NCBI GenBank assembly: GCA_021736615.1
Contig: JAIPFN010000010.1
Coordinates: 1 to 7,654, forward strand
Source: Phycisphaerae bacterium
Lineage (GTDB): Bacteria; Planctomycetota; Phycisphaerae; Sedimentisphaerales; Anaerohalosphaeraceae
DNA length: 7,654 bases
Reading direction: 5' to 3'
Under the pieces are notes generated by a model. It saw only the letters and a list, made by a program, of their open reading frames with translations. It had not been told where the DNA came from and ran no database searches. Numbering within the stretch: position 1 is the stretch's first letter; every line of letters starts with the position of its first letter. This document shows, piece after piece, positions 472 to 7,654 of this stretch. The translations under genes and the position numbers were made by a program.

Positions 472-670
472 GTGTAAATTTAAGTATCATACCAGGCATA
501 TCCGCGATTAAGTTTTCAATTTTTTTATTTTTTTTGTAGAAAAATCAAAATTTAATGATACATTTTTGCTTAAAGCGCGTCTTAATAATGGTACTGTGAC
601 CGATTTTAGAGGGAAAATAACGGGCATGCCATGAATAATAAACATATAAACCTATTATGTGTAAATACTT

Positions 671-2656
671 ATGGAAGATGGCGACAAACTAGATCTTATT
701 ATCGAGGCCTCAATTTCCGGCAACGAGATAGCGAAAGAAAAACTGGTGAAGTATGTTTCTGCGCGAATCGAGACGTACATTTATCGAAGTACGCTCGACA
801 GGGATGTTACAGGGGATATTTCGCAGGAGGTTTACTGCAAAATGTTTGATTCGCTGGACAGACTAAGAGATTTTAACGCATTTTGGCCATGGCTTTACCG
901 GATCTCGTTGAACTGCATAAATACTCACTACAGGTCTAAATACAGAGCTTCAAAACACTTTAACCTTCACGATGAGTTGCTGGATTCGATAGTCAGCGAC
1001 AGCAAAACGTCCGAATCGGACTTGTTAAAAAAGGAACTCGGTCAAGCCGTCATCAAAGCCGTCGCAACTCTTAAGCCCAGTCAAAGACAGATGGTCACCC
1101 TACGGTGTTTCGAAGATATGTCGTTTAGAGAGATCAGTGAAATCGAGCAGACTACCGAAATTTATGCTCGCGTTGTATTTCACCGGGCCATCGAAAAATT
1201 GCGTCTTGCCCTAAAAAAACAGGGTTTCAGCAAGGCGTCTCTTGTGCTGGCACTTTCGTTGTTCGGCAAATTGACGGCTTCTTCGGAGGCAGCAGCTGCA
1301 GCTACGAGCGTTACGGCAGCGAGTATTACAGGTGCCGGGGCGGCGAAAGGTTCGGTTATTGCCGCAAAAATCGCAAAATCCGTAGGGGCAATCTCGGCAC
1401 ACCATGTAAAAGTCGGGGTCGTTTCCGTCTCCGTCGCCGCTATTATAACAATATTGTTGACAATAGGAACTCTGCGATCAAACGTTACCAGTATGCACTT
1501 TTTCGTTCAAGGGGTTAGACCTATAGATAATCCCGTTGCCGGAAGTAGTTCTTCGTCGTCGCCTTCGACTCCTCCTTCTTCTTCTTCTTCTTCTTCTTCA
1601 TCATCGGCATCTTTTGGTCCAGACCGTGCAAAAGTCGAATATCGGACAATGGGTGCATACGAAGATAAGATCATTATGCCTGACGGTCCGGACGGGGCAA
1701 TGCTTCGTTTTTCGCAGAGATGGAACATAAAAAAGACCGGCAAACTGTGTTCATGGCTACAGGACGGAAGCGGCAACTACTATTACGCTTCATATGAGAA
1801 TAAAATACACATTTACAACGAACCCCTGCGAATGCCTATTTTGCCGACTGATCCGCCGGAATTTGTTGAGTTTTTTCATTCTCAGGTCGGTTATGATTCC
1901 CGTGTTAGTAATAATTATAAGTTCTTCAGCGGACTGTTAAAGTCCAGAATTGACAACCGTGTCTCCAAAGTTCCCGATTTCAAGTCCGAGTATGAATACA
2001 ATACTCTGGAAGTGGCCGATTTGGCCAGCACCTGGCCAAAAACTGATGACATAGTCGATGAGCGGGATGAAATGCACAAACGGGGCTGGACCTCTTTTGA
2101 GGTCGATGGCCTGGTAAACGGAAAACCGGTAACGGGGCTGGGGCAGATTCCATTTACCTATGACATGTACGCCGATCACAAACCATGGATTTCCATCAAG
2201 GCCGACAAAGATGTCTACATTGATTATCCCGGGGCGTTCGCCGGTGCCATCAGCGACAATGAGGTTCTGATATTTGAAAAAGAATCTTTCTTCGAAGGTT
2301 TTAGTCGCCCCTGGCAGGGCATTCCATGTATCGATTCTGTAATGCGAGACGCGGCGAAACGACGTTTACGATTTACTCTCCAGCAGAAGAATAACAAGGC
2401 AGAAGTGACGGTGTTCGTCGATACAATGCGAGGAAAAATGAAGATCGTTTACGGTATCGACAGGGAGGCAGATGTTATAGACAGCATACTATACTACAAA
2501 GACAATGACGTCATCGGTCAATTGTATTTTAAATACATGCAGGATGCGGCAAGCGCAGAAGATGAAAAATTCACTCCGCCTCACACCGACATTCCGGATA
2601 AAAAAGGAGTAAGCCCGGTTACTCCGTGGCTGGTAACGCTCGCAATTAATATTTAA
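671..2656 (+). CDS. Membrane-anchored sigma-70 (ECF-like) factor with large C-terminal extracytoplasmic domain
   Basis: A 661-residue protein. Residues about 5-92 look like sigma region 2 (DISQEVY at 49-55, WPWLYRISLN at 72-81). Residues about 123-187 are region 4, with LKPSQRQMVTLRC from 134 and the helix-turn-helix from MSFREISEI at 150 to about 180. It therefore should bind core RNA polymerase and direct it to promoters. An Ala-rich stretch (about 203-242) leads to one hydrophobic helix at about 248-268, then a Pro/Ser-rich linker (292-315) with ten consecutive Ser, then about 340 residues of soluble-looking sequence that I do not recognise. Sigma domain inside and C-terminus outside is the natural topology. 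Typical ECF factors are about 180-200 residues, so two thirds of this protein is extension. Planctomycetes are known for ECF factors with C-terminal fusions. The tail (WLQDGSGNYYY at about 355, and IDSILYYKDNDVIG-like sequence near the end) faintly resembles LolA/RseB-type lipoprotein-sorting folds, a guess only. A stop at 662-664 forces the start at 671; there is no Shine-Dalgarno. No anti-sigma gene follows. Confidence 0.85.
   Translation: MEDGDKLDLIIEASISGNEIAKEKLVKYVSARIETYIYRSTLDRDVTGDISQEVYCKMFDSLDRLRDFNAFWPWLYRISLNCINTHYRSKYRASKHFNLHDELLDSIVSDSKTSESDLLKKELGQAVIKAVATLKPSQRQMVTLRCFEDMSFREISEIEQTTEIYARVVFHRAIEKLRLALKKQGFSKASLVLALSLFGKLTASSEAAAAATSVTAASITGAGAAKGSVIAAKIAKSVGAISAHHVKVGVVSVSVAAIITILLTIGTLRSNVTSMHFFVQGVRPIDNPVAGSSSSSSPSTPPSSSSSSSSSSASFGPDRAKVEYRTMGAYEDKIIMPDGPDGAMLRFSQRWNIKKTGKLCSWLQDGSGNYYYASYENKIHIYNEPLRMPILPTDPPEFVEFFHSQVGYDSRVSNNYKFFSGLLKSRIDNRVSKVPDFKSEYEYNTLEVADLASTWPKTDDIVDERDEMHKRGWTSFEVDGLVNGKPVTGLGQIPFTYDMYADHKPWISIKADKDVYIDYPGAFAGAISDNEVLIFEKESFFEGFSRPWQGIPCIDSVMRDAAKRRLRFTLQQKNNKAEVTVFVDTMRGKMKIVYGIDREADVIDSILYYKDNDVIGQLYFKYMQDAASAEDEKFTPPHTDIPDKKGVSPVTPWLVTLAINI
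1577..1597 (+). repeat. (TCT)7 microsatellite encoding poly-Ser linker
   Basis: Seven perfect tandem TCT codons, followed by TCA TCA TCG, encode ten Ser (residues 303-312) in the linker just outside the membrane helix of the sigma factor protein. Nearby TCG runs and CCT CCT make the whole 1550-1610 segment low-complexity. Because the unit is three bases, slippage would change linker length without breaking the frame. Confidence 0.9.
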
Positions 2657-3055: not shown

Positions 3056-3103
3056 AATATTAAGTAAGCAATAGTAACTTTTATTTGAAAGTGAGTGTTT
3101 GGT

Positions 3104-4369
3104 ATGAAAAAAGAAGCAATTGAACAGGCTTATGAACTGGCAAAACAACAGTATGCGGCAATCGGTGTTGATACCGAAGCGGCTATGAAACAGCTTGAGA
3201 CCGTTCCGGTTTCCATGCACTGCTGGCAGGGCGATGACGTCGGCGGATACGAGCATGTCGGCGGCAGCGAACTTAGCGGCGGAATCCAGGCAACGGGTAA
3301 CTATCCCGGCAAGGCCCGCACGATCGATGAGCTTCGCGGCGATATCGAAAAGGCACTTGCGATGATCCCCGGTAATCACCGTCTGAACCTGCACGCATGT
3401 TATATCGACAACGGCGGTAAATTTATCGACCGTGACGAAATGAAGCCTGAGCACTTCCAGAGTTGGATCGACTGGGGCAAAGGCAAACTTCACGGTATGG
3501 ATTTCAATCCCACTTATTTCTCGCATGATAAAGCGGCTGACGGTTTTACGCTGAGTCATCCGGACAAGGCTATCCGCGATTTCTGGATCGACCACGGCAA
3601 AAGATGCCGTAAAATCGGTGCTGAAATGGGTAAACAGTTCGGTACGACTACCGTTACCAATTTCTGGATTCCTGACTCGTATAAAGATACTCCGGCAGAC
3701 CGTGTTTCTCCTCGTGAACGTCTTGCCGATTCGCTTGACAAAATCTTCGCCGAAGAGATCGACCCGAAACTGCACCTTGACGCTGTTGAATCCAAGCTGT
3801 TTGGTATCGGCGGTGAAAGCTATACTGTCGGTTCGCATGAGTTCTACATGGGTTACGCAGTTTCCCGTCAAAAGCTTCTATGTCTCGATGCCGGTCACTA
3901 TCATCCGACCGAAATGATCTCCGAGAAGATTTCTTCTGTTATGATGTTCTGCCCGGAACTTCTGCTGCACGTCAGCCGTCCGGTTCGCTGGGACAGTGAC
4001 CACGTAGTTTGCTTCGACGACGAACTCCAGCAGATCGCCAAGGAACTTGTTCGCAGCGGCAAGCTCGACAAGGTTCATATCGGTCTTGACTTCTTCGACG
4101 CGAGCATCAACCGTGTGGCTGCGTGGGTTATCGGTACGCGTAACATGGTTAAGGCACTGCTGTTCGGTATGCTCGAGCCTATCGCAGACATCCGAAAAGC
4201 CGAACTGGAAATGGACTTCACCAAACGCCTGGTTATGTTCGAAGAGCTTAAGTCTCTGCCATGGGCGGCTGTGTGGAACTACTACTGCATGAAGCAGGGC
4301 GTTCCGGTTGGTCTTGACTGGTTTGCAGAAGTTAAGAAGTACGAAGATGACGTTCTTAGCAAACGCTAA
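3104..4369 (+). CDS. rhaA: L-rhamnose isomerase
   Basis: Cytoplasmic, Mn-dependent isomerase converting L-rhamnose to L-rhamnulose, the first catabolic step (EC 5.3.1.14). The 421-residue product matches the usual length (E. coli about 419) and carries the family signatures throughout: [13 protein letters not shown] near the N-terminus, [16 protein letters not shown], the [10 protein letters not shown] motif around residue 261, [13 protein letters not shown] around 290-302, and [12 protein letters not shown]265, D297 and D299 correspond, with a constant offset of three, to the metal-binding H262, D294 and D296 that I recall for E. coli RhaA, so the active site appears intact. ATG at 3104 is preferred over in-frame GTG at 3095 because a GAAAGTGAG ribosome site ends eight bases before it. 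It is the first gene of an operon with rhaT, 50 bases downstream. No kinase or regulator gene lies beside it in this window. Confidence 0.97.
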
Positions 4370-4408
4370 GCATTAAGGGAACCTTTAACAAGTATGTTGT
4401 TTCAAATC

Positions 4409-4413
4409 AGGAG
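4409..4413 (+). promoter_or_regulatory. Ribosome binding site of rhaT
   Basis: AGGAG six bases before the ATG at 4420 is a canonical Shine-Dalgarno site and fixes the rhaT start. It is the clearest one in the window; the sigma gene and the DapA-family gene lack one. Confidence 0.8.
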
Positions 4414-4419
4414 TAACGT

Positions 4420-5553
4420 ATGACTAATCTATTAGCAAACGCGACCAACCCGGCTATAGGGATTATGATCTTTATGATCGGCGGTCTGGCAGGTGCGATC
4501 TTTTATATGCCCCTGAAAAAAGTCAAGAACTGGGCATGGGAGAGCTACTGGATGATCTATGCGGTTTTCGGACTGTTGATCGTTCCATGGATTCTCGCAC
4601 TGACAATGTCGCCGAATGTTTTCGATGTCTTAAAAGAGGCGCCGAAAAATGAGATATTATATTGCTTTATCTGTGGTGCGTTATGGGGATTCGGCGGACT
4701 TACATGGGGTCTGATGATCCGGTACCTCGGTGTTGGGCTAGGCCTTGCACTCGGTTGCGGTATCTGCTCGGCTGCTGGAACTCTCATCCCGCCGATGCTT
4801 AAAGGCTCGGAGGCAATTTCTGCTATGTTTACAACCACTTCCGGCATAGTTTCAGTTATCGGTGCACTGGTTTCGGTTGCCGGTATTGTCTTTGTCGGAA
4901 TGGCAGGGATGTCCAAGGAAAATGAACTGCCTGAAGAAGAAAAGAAAAAGGCAGTTGCCGAATTCGACTTTAAGAAGGGTATCATCGCGGTGCTGTTTTC
5001 GGGTCTTATGAGTTCGGCAATGAGTTTCGGTTTGCAGGGCGGCGGAGAAATTGAAAAGCTCGCATTGATAACCGAACCATTTACTACTGTTGCCTGGAAG
5101 GGAATGCCGGTATTAGTGGTCGTTCTTCTCGGCGGTTTCGTGGTAAATGCCGGATGGTGTCTTATCTTGAATATCAAGAACAAGACCACAGGCGACTATG
5201 TCAAGACGAGTTCGCCGATACTTCCGAACCTGATCTTTGCCGGTATTGCCGGTACCATCTGGTGCTCACAGTTTATCTGCTTTAAGACTGGCGAGCCTCA
5301 AATGGGCGATACGTCGTATATCGGCTGGGCGGTTTTGATGGCTAGTGCAATTTTGTTCAGCCAGATACTCGGTCTGTTTCTTGGCGAGTGGAAAGGTACC
5401 AGCAAAAAGACCATGTCGCTTCTTGGTATCGGCCTGTTTTTGCTTGTAATCTCTGCAATTGTCGCAGGTTACAGCGGCCACATCGCAGCAAGCGAGAAGA
5501 CACCGATAATAGATGTTCCGGCAGTTGTTGCTGAGCTAAATAAAACATTGTAA
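4420..5553 (+). CDS. rhaT: L-rhamnose/H+ symporter, RhaT family
   Basis: Inner-membrane sugar transporter of the drug/metabolite transporter superfamily that imports L-rhamnose with a proton and supplies RhaA. The family signature is seen near the N-terminus as FYMPLKKVKNWAWESYW (28-44; E. coli has a very similar KKVKKWSWET), then GALWGFGGLTWGLMIRYLG (86-104) and GCGICSAAGTLIPP (112-125). About ten hydrophobic segments are visible, roughly at 12-31, 44-63, 79-100, 104-124, 139-161, 187-205, 227-250, 268-288, 301-321 and 331-352. A charged cytoplasmic-type loop (KENELPEEEKKK, 166-177) divides the two halves of five, as expected of this fold. At 377 residues it is somewhat longer than E. coli RhaT (about 344), mostly in loops and a C-terminal tail of about 25 residues. 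Co-transcribed with rhaA; a terminator follows. Confidence 0.93.
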   Translation: MTNLLANATNPAIGIMIFMIGGLAGAIFYMPLKKVKNWAWESYWMIYAVFGLLIVPWILALTMSPNVFDVLKEAPKNEILYCFICGALWGFGGLTWGLMIRYLGVGLGLALGCGICSAAGTLIPPMLKGSEAISAMFTTTSGIVSVIGALVSVAGIVFVGMAGMSKENELPEEEKKKAVAEFDFKKGIIAVLFSGLMSSAMSFGLQGGGEIEKLALITEPFTTVAWKGMPVLVVVLLGGFVVNAGWCLILNIKNKTTGDYVKTSSPILPNLIFAGIAGTIWCSQFICFKTGEPQMGDTSYIGWAVLMASAILFSQILGLFLGEWKGTSKKTMSLLGIGLFLLVISAIVAGYSGHIAASEKTPIIDVPAVVAELNKTL

Positions 5554-5598
5554 GAGTTTCTGCCATGTCATTAAGCTGCAATGATGGAGTTAAATAAC

Positions 5599-5640
5599 AA
5601 GCGGAGCCCGTCGTTACAGGTGGGCTTCGTTTTTTGTTTT
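5599..5640 (+). terminator. Intrinsic terminator of the rhaA-rhaT operon
   Basis: CGGAGCCC (5602-5609) pairs with GGGCTTCG (5622-5629) around a 12-base loop, with one G-T pair, extendable by flanking A-T pairs. It is followed by TTTTTTG and more Ts to 5641. The GC-rich stem and long T-tract make a good rho-independent terminator 45 bases after the rhaT stop. Confidence 0.85.
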
Positions 5641-5658
5641 TAATCATTAGGGATGCAA

Positions 5659-6633
5659 ATGTTTGATTTCGATTACGCCAGGGGTGTTATTGAGTGCGAG
5701 GCGAAAGCTATCGAGTCGCTTGTTAAGGTTGTCGACGGCGAGTTTGCTCGTGCGGTCGAGGCGATGTTTAATTGCAGCGGTTCGATCATTGTCAGCGGGA
5801 TGGGCAAGGCGGGGATCATCGGCAATAAGATCAGCGCGACGCTTGCGTCGACGGGGACTCCGAGCCATTTTCTGCACCCGGCAGAGGCTATTCATGGTGA
5901 TCTTGGAAGGGTCCAGCAGAACGATATTGTGCTTGCTCTCAGTCACAGCGGCGAAAGCGAAGAGATCATTCGCCTGATTGACGCGATCAAACGCAGAGAA
6001 ATAAAACTTATTGCCATCACCGGAAACTGCGAGTCTTCGCTGGCAAAATACAGCGACATTGTGATATGCATGGGACAGCTTAAAGAGGCCGGGCCATTTG
6101 CGATTGCTCCGAGCGTTTCGACGACGTGCATGCTTGCATTGGGCGATTCGCTGGCGTTTACCATCATGAAGGCCAGAAACTTCAGCAGCGAAGACTATGC
6201 GAGATTCCATCCGGGCGGGGCGATAGGGGCGAGCCTGATAACCGTCGAGCAATCGATGATGTTCAAGAAGGGCGAGAAACTTCCGCTTGCTCAAATAAGC
6301 GATACGGTCGGCGATATGTTCGAAAAACAAGCCGGGCTGAAAAGACGCGGAGCTGTCATGGTCGTGGACGCCGCCGGCAAACTGGCAGGGATTATTACCG
6401 ATGCCGATCTCAGGCGCGCGGTCGTCAGTAAGAAATCGGAACTGTTCGACACGAAGGTCAGCGAGATAATGACTCCGGACTGTAAGCGGGTTACCGGCGA
6501 TACGCTGGCCGCAGAGGCGATGGCGATCTTCCATAAGTTCAGGATCGACGATCTGCCGGTTGTAGATGAAAATGACAAACCTGTAGGCCTTATCGACGTT
6601 CAGGATGTTGTGACATTAAAGGTCGTTTCGTAA
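5659..6633 (+). CDS. kdsD: D-arabinose-5-phosphate isomerase (SIS plus two CBS domains)
   Basis: Cytoplasmic aldose-ketose isomerase interconverting D-ribulose-5-phosphate and D-arabinose-5-phosphate, normally the entry step to Kdo for lipopolysaccharide. Numbered from ATG at 5653 (326 residues), the SIS domain spans about 40-195 with GMGKAG (49-54), ASTGTPSHFLHPAEAIHGDLG (65-85), SHSGESEE (97-104) and HPGGAIG (186-192). K52, E104, E145 and H186 align at a constant offset of seven with the catalytic K59, E111, E152 and H193 reported for E. coli KdsD. CBS domains follow at about 200-262 and 268-326, the second with a clear VSEIMTP and DDLPVVDE; the first has a degenerate opening (EQSMMFKKG). 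ATG at 5659 is chosen because TAGGG at 5648-5652 sits six bases before it, whereas it abuts 5653. No kdsC or kdsA is adjacent, so a role in LPS precursor supply rests on the family; a sugar-catabolic isomerase (GutQ-like) is possible. Confidence 0.92.
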   Translation: MFDFDYARGVIECEAKAIESLVKVVDGEFARAVEAMFNCSGSIIVSGMGKAGIIGNKISATLASTGTPSHFLHPAEAIHGDLGRVQQNDIVLALSHSGESEEIIRLIDAIKRREIKLIAITGNCESSLAKYSDIVICMGQLKEAGPFAIAPSVSTTCMLALGDSLAFTIMKARNFSSEDYARFHPGGAIGASLITVEQSMMFKKGEKLPLAQISDTVGDMFEKQAGLKRRGAVMVVDAAGKLAGIITDADLRRAVVSKKSELFDTKVSEIMTPDCKRVTGDTLAAEAMAIFHKFRIDDLPVVDENDKPVGLIDVQDVVTLKVVS

Positions 6634-6635
6634 CA

Positions 6636-6679
6636 AAAAAAAACAGCCGAACAGATCAATCGACCGGCCCGGCTGTTTT
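6636..6679. terminator. Bidirectional terminator between convergent kdsD and aldolase/dehydrogenase gene
   Basis: AAAACAGCCG (6640-6649) and CGGCTGTTTT (6670-6679) form a perfect ten-base-pair stem with a 20-base loop. For the minus-strand gene the stem is followed by a run of Ts (complement of the A-run 6635-6643), a full intrinsic terminator. For kdsD the T-tract is only the TTTT of the stem, so it is weaker in that direction. It begins just after the kdsD stop. Confidence 0.85.
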
Positions 6680-6710
6680 CAATAATAAATAATCAATCAT
6701 CAATAATAAA

Positions 6711-7654
6711 TCAACGAACCATTACCTGTCCTCCGTCTACTACCAGTGTCTGGCCGGTGATCATTCTGGCTTTGTCGCTTGCAAGGAATACTACTGAGTT
6801 TGCGATGTCCTGGCCGAAAATCTCTTTGTTGAGTATCGTTTTGCTGACGTAGAATGGTATGACCTCATTGGGCTTGATGCCGTATTTTTTTGCACATACC
6901 TTGATGTATTCGGGGTTCCATATCTTTGAGCCTTCGAATACGTTGCCGGGGCAAATCGAATTTACGCGAATGCCGAACTGGCCGAGTTCCATTGCCCAGC
7001 CGCGTGACATGTGTATCTGTCCGGCTTTGCCGGCGTTGTAGGGAGTATTGTTTTTGCTTGCGTCCAGTCCGGTCTTGGAGCTGATGGTGACTAAATTGCC
7101 GCCGATGCCTTGTTTGATCATTGTTCTGGCCGCGTATTTTGCCATAAGGAAATAACCGGTGAGGTTGACTTCGTTGGCGAAACGCCACTTGCCCGCTTCC
7201 ATGTCGACGAGTGCTCCGGCAGGTGCCATACCTGCGGCGTTTACGAGTATGTCAAGCCCGCCAAAATCATCAACGATCTGATTGAAACCGGCTTCGACGT
7301 TTGCTTCGTCTGTGACATTGCACTTGATGACGACGGTGTGTGCGCCGGCGATTTCGTTTTGGATTTCCTGCTGAGCCTCTATTGCGGCATTCTCGTCGAT
7401 GTCTGCAAGGGCGACCATGGCGCCTGCACGGGCAAGACCTATCGCGATGCTTTTTCCGATACCGCTGCCTGCACCTGTAACTACCGCGATGCGGCCGTCG
7501 AGGTCGCCTGCACCTGCGCCGGCTGCAAGGGCTTTTCTAAATGCCTCTGATTCCCACTTGTCAATGAAGTCCTTCTGCATTTTGGTAAGGGATGAAACTC
7601 CGCCCATCTTGTCGGCGTTAGTGCGAATAAAGAGGGAACTTGTTACGATCTCGT
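6711..7654 (-). CDS. Probable bifunctional rhamnulose-1-phosphate aldolase/lactaldehyde dehydrogenase, C-terminal SDR part (5' end beyond window)
   Basis: The stop is at 6711-6713; the frame remains open through the right edge. The SDR domain is complete: TGAGSGIG nucleotide-binding motif, DILVNAAG, LVTISS with the catalytic Ser, and YNAGK with catalytic Tyr (codon 7038-7040) and Lys (7026-7028), then RVNSICPGNVFEGSKIW and a C-terminal VVDGG. Met at 7607 could start a 298-residue SDR, but no Shine-Dalgarno precedes it, and the 15 upstream codons read smoothly (EIVTSSLFIRTNADK). Together with GGVSSLTKMQKDFIDKWESE they resemble the aldolase end and linker of RhaEW/YuxG-type fusions (class II aldolase plus SDR), which also share the GSKIW...YGIKP segment. 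In those enzymes the aldolase yields dihydroxyacetone phosphate and L-lactaldehyde, and the SDR oxidises the latter to lactate using NAD. This fits the neighbouring rhaA-rhaT. The alternative is a stand-alone sorbitol-6-phosphate-like dehydrogenase. Confidence 0.82.
   Translation of the reverse strand, partial: EIVTSSLFIRTNADKMGGVSSLTKMQKDFIDKWESEAFRKALAAGAGAGDLDGRIAVVTGAGSGIGKSIAIGLARAGAMVALADIDENAAIEAQQEIQNEIAGAHTVVIKCNVTDEANVEAGFNQIVDDFGGLDILVNAAGMAPAGALVDMEAGKWRFANEVNLTGYFLMAKYAARTMIKQGIGGNLVTISSKTGLDASKNNTPYNAGKAGQIHMSRGWAMELGQFGIRVNSICPGNVFEGSKIWNPEYIKVCAKKYGIKPNEVIPFYVSKTILNKEIFGQDIANSVVFLASDKARMITGQTLVVDGGQVMVR

Follow-up and report, generated by a model that had tools for sequence, protein, structure and literature searches.

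A putative autoregulated, membrane-tethered ECF sigma factor with its own outer domain in a Phycisphaerae bacterium

The question raised by this locus is whether an extracytoplasmic function (ECF) sigma factor can be held at the membrane by its own C terminus and take its signal through the same polypeptide. The window analyzed is a 7,654-nucleotide stretch of a Phycisphaerae genome (contig JAIPFN010000010.1), and the gene in question is a single open reading frame (ORF) of 661 amino acids at 671..2656; all features described below lie on the forward strand. The ORF begins with the ECF sigma part (regions 2 and 4), continues with a conserved hydrophobic motif, a single probable membrane helix, and a linker rich in Ser, and closes with a C-terminal domain of 344 residues. 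The one-frame layout and the coordinates described in an earlier note on this DNA were confirmed. The product is probably an autoregulated, membrane-tethered ECF factor carrying its own outer sensor. The interpretation given in the earlier note was, as a whole, partly supported; the self-promoter, the wider regulon, and the usual operon partners described here are additions to it.

Judged by profile matches and alignment, the window protein is an ECF sigma factor. Region 2 (residues 26-92, 746..946) matched PF04542 (Sigma70_r2) with an E value of 5.4e-5 and a score of 23.4 bits, slightly below the cut-off of 24. Region 4 (residues 125-177, 1043..1201) matched PF08281 (Sigma70_r4_2) with an E value of 6.1e-7 and 29.4 bits against a cut-off of 25.7, and the NCBIfam model sigma70-ECF (TIGR02937) gave 57.4 bits against a cut-off of 42.9. 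Both Pfam families matched all 75 family members (E ≤ 1). In the 75 aligned sequences Q52 and W74 of region 2 were invariant, and regions 2 and 4 of the window protein could be aligned to solved ECF factors; at the level of whole regions, the loss of polymerase-contacting residues that would speak against the earlier note was not seen. No anti-sigma factor was detected by Pfam among the five other window proteins scanned, in line with the claim that none is encoded beside the gene. Directly after region 4, a juxta-sigma4 hydrophobic motif (GFSKASLVLALSLFGKLTASSEAAA, residues 185-209, 1223..1297) was recognized by its conservation in the 75 sequences, with G185 invariant and L195, F198, G199, and A207 each present in at least 90%. 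A similar version occurs in sigma factors that lack the window-type outer domain.

The fusion recurred in independent genomes. A search of 5.8 billion proteins, in which the 7989 candidates with the most words in common with the query were scored, returned 93 entries including the window protein itself. The 92 others matched at E ≤ 5.1e-51, and 85 of them spanned at least 92% of the window protein; 74 relatives aligned to it were 25-56% identical. The nearest piece among the matches listed was P0204, a 335-residue outer-domain fragment with 74% identity. A genome scan, for which the best 80 of 94 relatives were kept, yielded 79 loci. Their records were titled Planctomycetota/Planctomycetes, Phycisphaerae, Phycisphaerales, Sedimentisphaerales, or Anaerohalosphaeraceae, except for three titled Actinomycetes, which are likely mislabelled bins. 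The sigma part lay at least partly on the same ORF in 77 of 79 outer-domain ORFs (from 77 of the 79 fetched loci), and in the two without it (L074 and L079) a 100-N assembly gap was located directly upstream. In the taxonomic family of genome G012, the outer domain was found in 61 of 89 genomes with 1-7 matches each, some of which represent two pieces of one gene; each of the four short ORFs examined there runs up to a contig end. One of the two closest loci comes from G002, a bin titled Anaerohalosphaeraceae, and in the family of this bin a match at 1e-60 was present in 6 of 39 genomes. The proposed survey for paralogues revealed several co-linear copies per genome in Planctomycetota, and their neighbours were catalogued. 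Two family genes occur in a single locus in L012 (7953-11962, in tandem) and in L030 (3069-9746). Because 92 proteins match, 85 of them at near full length, and 77 of 79 ORFs carry the sigma part, a chance or assembly merge is excluded. A frameshift or a merge of two genes had been named as the outcome that would undo the fused layout; no sign of it was found, nothing was found in its favour, and the retention of the same fusion in independent genomes leaves it a negligible probability. A viral origin was likewise rejected, as no relative was encoded in 35 pattern-matched stretches of viral contigs.

The same genomes encode further sigma factors that resemble the family in the sigma and anchor region but end in different C termini. 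Three of them (L088, 2517-3932; L089, 2591-3880; L091, 2985-3833) possess a similar juxta-sigma4 motif, lack the outer domain, and have hydrophobic helices at the C terminus; upstream they share TGTAAC...GGAC-TATA-like sites that score below the family threshold. Four tethered sigma factors (L092, 3027-4391 and 13317-14660; L093, 1788-3149; L094, 2964-4331) carry another C-terminal domain of about 170 residues, which contains a D-x-PGP-[DE] stretch. Two more distant, giant sigma factors of 1283 and 1391 amino acids (L095, 2644-6495; L096, 3737-7912) continue past the anchor with about 1000 residues of repeats that appear carboxypeptidase-regulatory-like by eye. The co-linear conservation of the family, together with these factors that are similar in the sigma-anchor region and different beyond it, supports the one-protein tethered layout.

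Insertion into the membrane is predicted to occur by the helix at residues 248-266 (1412..1468), identified by hydropathy as one strong hydrophobic segment with a mean Kyte-Doolittle value of 2.44. Such a segment (Kyte-Doolittle value ≥ 1.6) is present in 73 of 75 family members. Beyond the helix lies a Ser/Pro-rich linker (residues 285-317, 1523..1621) with 18 Ser in 33 residues. The earlier note had described a poly-Ser linker, which holds for the window protein and its closer relatives, where the linker is typical; the more distant relatives inspected have a short one. Lys and Arg residues before and after the helix number 4 and 2 in the window protein, with family means of 2.05 and 2.01. 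An arrangement without a single membrane crossing, in which the protein is peripheral or forms a hairpin and the C-terminal domain acts in the cytoplasm as a built-in anti-sigma factor, appears very improbable. It would be consistent with the missing family-wide Lys/Arg bias, with a second segment of Kyte-Doolittle value ≥ 1.6 in 13 of 75 members, and with a weaker hydrophobic stretch at about residues 190-205 in many members. However, the latter stretch is short and usually contains Lys, the Ser/Pro-rich linker follows the helix of the window protein, the far side of the helix is more acidic (family means for Asp/Glu of 0.41 before and 1.67 after), and the more distant anchored sigma factors bear their long repeats past the anchor.

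The C-terminal domain (residues 318-661, 1622..2653) was defined from an alignment of 30 sequences and is probably extracytoplasmic. Its conserved polar/aromatic core reads D-x-R-D-x-MHKRGW; in the MHKRGW motif (residues 468-473, 2072..2089) M, H, R, G, and W are invariant in the 30 sequences and K is present in at least 90%. That this domain could not be named was reproduced here: the window domain had no Pfam match at E ≤ 10, and a PDB profile search yielded no convincing relative. The only match, the designed protein Pizza6 (E 0.0086), had no stretch that passes alone and was taken as chance. Homology to LolA_like/RseB proteins was rejected, as hhalign against six LolA_like proteins, with six of nine loci used, gave 4.8% probability over 22 columns; neither LolA_like nor MucB_RseB matched the outer domain in Pfam (E ≤ 10), and MucB_RseB was found in 0 of 12 genomes. 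No internal duplication was evident at four cut points. In the places checked, no stand-alone outer domain was found (19 sequences read, from the best 120 of 134 matches listed). The start of these 19 sequences falls within sigma region 4, the linker, or the domain itself, or is unrelated in sequence; a signal peptide preceding the domain was seen in none of them.

The DNA upstream of 73 family genes, the window gene and 72 others, was scanned for a shared promoter. A dyad, CGTTA..GGCACT, stood out, and a two-block profile was iteratively refined and scored in a leave-one-out manner, with 1460 shuffles as the null. In the window, an ECF-type promoter of the form AATTTAATGATACATT-N9-AGCGCGTCTTAATAATGGTA was located at 549..593, with the -35 core GATAC at 557-561. 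Its leave-one-out score was 16.7, against a 99.9% level of 16.56 in the shuffles. When the site was kept in the profile, it ranked first on both strands of the entire window (19.6 versus 8.0 for the next). A self-promoter above the 99% threshold was found in 51 of 73 family genes and above the 99.9% threshold in 46; of the 416 other genes of these loci, 5 and 0, respectively, passed. As only 1 of 61 first downstream genes had a promoter of its own above the 99% level, these genes are probably transcribed together with the sigma gene. Some relatives (L007, L008, L009, and L032) show TGTAAC...CGTCTA, a textbook form of the ECF promoter. A sigma-54 reading of the TGGCAC block was rejected by eye, as the sites contain no TTGC element. 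Taken together, these in silico comparisons support the recognition of an ECF-type self-promoter.

The variation of this promoter follows the sigma part. In partial Mantel tests on 54 sites, promoter distance correlated with sigma distance given the outer domain (r = 0.41; 0 of 2000 permutations as high), compared with 0.05 for outer-domain distance given the sigma part (417 of 2000 permutations as high). Because promoter distance tracks the sigma and not the outer distance, the sigma part seems to be the reader of the self-promoter. Normalized mutual information pointed to residue 168, encoded by the Val codon at 1172..1174, which covaries with the -35 core and ranked first of 414 protein columns for the -35 triplet (0.80; next column, 0.61). 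Met at this position was paired with TTA in 27 of 29 cases, Ala or Ser with TCA in 13 of 14, and Val with TAA in 6 of 7; rarer classes were Lys with TCC (2/2) and Thr with TGA (1/1), and for one site the residue was unread. Among 35 distinct helix strings, 33 were consistent on the middle base. Residue 168 lies in the recognition helix of region 4. In solved ECF factors the aligned residue is the Ser of VRSRIFRA, which in sigma-E of E. coli presumably touches the -35 element. The rule was applied to 38 further relatives with <90% identity to the training set, several of them from related genomes. Twenty of them scored above the 99% threshold, and 19 of these 20 had the base expected from residue 168. 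Regardless of score, the prediction held in 31 of 38 (Met, 20/21; other residues, 11/16), and one relative with Leu gave no prediction.

The genes following the sigma gene suggest what is controlled in addition. The first downstream gene was co-directional in all 71 loci that have one, and in 65 of these it was ≤250 bp away or overlapping, versus an orientation ratio of 37:32 for the upstream neighbour; six loci had no downstream gene, and in one of these (L026) 3.0 kb of sequence remained. In the out-of-sample set, the downstream gene (longest ORF starting ≤700 bp away) was co-directional in 37 of 39. The 71 first genes matched Beta_helix (30), Disaggr_assoc (30), NosD (21), and Laminin_G_3 (11), with overlapping counts. 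A pilin-like start was found by pattern in 23 of 42 co-directional second genes, and an N_methyl motif in 21 of 33 scanned. By a simple rule, 59 of 68 first genes had a signal-peptide-like start versus 156 of 372 others, in a comparison that left out second genes, short ORFs, and cut ORFs; in the out-of-sample set the number was 28 of 37. Beyond these neighbours, a strict promoter pattern gave 24 sites in 7 of 12 genomes, and the backward-read pattern gave 0. Twenty sites were read. Six precede sigma genes, five of the family by position (L117, L125, L127, L128, and L131) and one encoding a 218-residue sigma ORF without outer domain (L114). Seven stand before genes whose products were judged by eye to look exported (L115, L119, L121, L122, L124, L126, and L129), the beta-helix, LamG, and protease labels of such genes being assigned by eye and not by scan. 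One site (L123) has a membrane-protein-like gene 309 bases downstream, and six were without a clear gene or chance-like (L116, L118, L120, L130, L132, and L133). One of the four unread sites (G011, contig C346) is, by position, directly upstream of a family gene. These sites support a link to exported-protein genes, with the same promoter apparently standing before some unlinked ones. At L130, L132, and L133 the family promoter is well matched, but the sequence read shows no clear gene in the same direction; these sites possibly mark untranslated transcripts or missed genes. For L130 and L133, three listed sites lie within 13 kb of contig C42 of G012.

The frequent exported beta-helix, LamG, and pilin-like neighbours also bear on a different role for the C-terminal domain, namely that it is a structural or enzymatic part of the surface and no sensor, the tether coupling transcription of the cassette to its correct export. 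The highly conserved core of the domain would suit such a function as well. The different C-terminal parts found on a similar sigma-anchor region are, however, better explained by interchangeable inputs, and we regard the surface-part explanation as improbable.

A number of observations weigh against an autoregulated factor with a single membrane crossing and an exported-protein regulon. Many relatives have a membrane helix that is just moderately hydrophobic, and the Lys/Arg counts show no positive-inside bias across the family. The self-promoter fell below the 99% threshold in 22 of 73 family upstream regions and in 18 of 38 out-of-sample ones, and leave-one-out scoring dropped the scored sequence and kept its relatives. 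L001 has a TGATAC-type site like that of the window at a similar distance, which scored only 6.9. The pair V168/GATAC, found in the window and likewise in L001, breaks the V-GTAA rule. The profile itself favours T at the predicted base, and therefore the agreement of the Met cases (20/21) is partly built in. For the -10 core no residue stood out; the best column was 184, and the second, 351, lies in the outer domain. Mean unnormalized mutual information did not favour sigma over outer columns (0.56 versus 0.54 for the -35 and 1.01 versus 1.12 for the -10 core). Seven of the 20 regulon sites read were without a clear exported gene or chance-like. The window copy itself lacks the usual neighbours; rhaA begins 439 bp downstream and is followed by rhaT. 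Close relatives deviate too, with purC as the next gene in L001, another sigma gene in L002, and an opposed next gene in L151 and L153. No significant second promoter was found between the window sigma gene and rhaA (best score 7.3 versus a 95% null of 7.8), and control of rhamnose genes by the window sigma factor was rejected on this basis. M50 proteases, finally, are encoded in all 13 genomes tested, yet all 14 controls encode them as well, so that their presence is no evidence for proteolytic release.

For the autoregulated, tethered factor, the following course of events is proposed. The N-terminal sigma2-sigma4 part would reside in the cytoplasm, anchored to the cytoplasmic membrane through the C terminus of the same protein, with a single helix spanning the membrane and the 344-residue domain outside serving as input. 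A cue acting on the outer domain would free the sigma part; regulated intramembrane proteolysis, as reported for IutY, is the most likely route. The freed part would recognize the promoter just upstream of its own gene, and activation would therefore yield more of the factor in a positive feedback. In many relatives it would also yield an exported protein, commonly of the beta-helix or LamG type, and the adjoining pilin-like protein, and some unlinked exported-protein genes with the same promoter would join the regulon.

Proteolysis is favoured because of what is described for studied fused factors. IutY (ECF243) of Pseudomonas putida is a sigma factor with a membrane-bound C-terminal part, freed via Prc and RseP (PMC8999054), and for SCO4117 (ECF52) of Streptomyces coelicolor release is proposed and positive autoregulation suggested (PMC5826349). 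Alternatively, the factor might work in the membrane without release, the outer domain altering the conformation or oligomerization of the sigma part in a ToxR/CadC-like mode. We regard this as unlikely. By its position right behind region 4, the juxta-sigma4 motif could connect sigma4 with the membrane, and a similar motif is retained in sigma factors with other C termini. The holoenzyme would, however, need to function at the membrane, and the literature on experimentally studied fused ECF factors favours release (shown for IutY and proposed for SCO4117).

The autoregulated, tethered factor was compared with known systems. In SCO4117 a single protein unites an ECF sigma part with a membrane helix, a linker of low complexity, and an additional domain, a layout that is predicted for the window protein too. 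ECF52 differs by a carbohydrate-binding module and by a zinc finger that precedes the helix, and is described as exclusive to Actinobacteria (PMC5826349). The window family, unlike ECF52, has neither a zinc-finger nor a carbohydrate-binding match, and its relatives occur in Planctomycetota. The zinc-finger anti-sigma motif is HxxxCxxC; it was present anywhere in 1 of 75 family members, and no zinc-finger family matched the window protein (Pfam, E ≤ 1). IutY resembles the window protein in the fusion of a sigma factor to a C-terminal part, which in IutY is membrane-bound (PMC8999054) and in the window protein is predicted to be. It differs in that this part is the membrane-bound anti-sigma factor of an iron-starvation surface-signalling system. 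The fused anti-sigma factor of IutY is of the FecR type, and FecR had no match in the window protein (Pfam, E ≤ 1). ECF57 of Singulisphaera acidiphila is a planctomycete ECF group with a long C-terminal extension, listed without an anti-sigma factor (PMC8999054). Some ECF57 members have WD40-like extensions, in contrast to the window family, where WD40 was absent from the outer domains of 30 members (Pfam, E ≤ 10). ECF57 proteins may be membrane-bound. SigI-RsgI of Clostridium thermocellum (Acetivibrio) also links trans-membrane polysaccharide sensing through a sigma factor to exported-protein genes, but the sensor RsgI is a separate anti-sigma protein unfused to the sigma factor (PMC11557425). 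By its sequence features the family thus resembles the fused transmembrane ECF groups without, as far as tested, their zinc-finger, FecR, or WD40 parts. No publication on this fused family was noticed among the matches listed, which is not a claim of its absence from print.

More tentatively, and with somewhat less confidence than doubt, the family may belong to a class of sigma factors that act across the envelope as single, modular proteins. In this class a fixed sigma-anchor module would be combined with interchangeable outer sensors, one residue of the -35 helix would largely set the promoter "dialect," and each member would head a private, self-amplifying operon for one large surface protein and often a pilin-like partner. 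If so, the outer domain would serve as sensor for the condition of that surface structure or for its ligand, and a genome with several sets would select its surface repertoire through parallel, insulated feedback loops. Single-protein ECF signal transducers are known from a few groups, and few of those have been studied. For this multi-copy family there are now a predicted promoter, a first view of the regulon, and a one-residue specificity rule, and the outer domain can therefore be approached with a ready reporter. This provides a testable entry to exported-protein control in the poorly studied Planctomycetota, and the family offers candidate insulated sigma-promoter pairs.

Some further features of the gene surroundings were recorded. 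The remainder of the window (3095-7654) encodes rhaA, rhaT, a KpsF/KdsD-like gene, and an SDR. The latter matches only the dehydrogenase half of the bifunctional RhaD-ADH, and because its ORF runs off the edge of the window, the aldolase half may be encoded beyond it. In L002 the fused gene is directly followed, at 4658-6134, by another sigma-like gene, which the ORF call gives in fragments, and by two small ORFs. The subclade of L003, L004, and L005 has an AAA ATPase gene, MoxR-like by eye, with a next gene that is DUF58 in L004; this pair is located directly downstream in L004 and L005 and farther away in L003.

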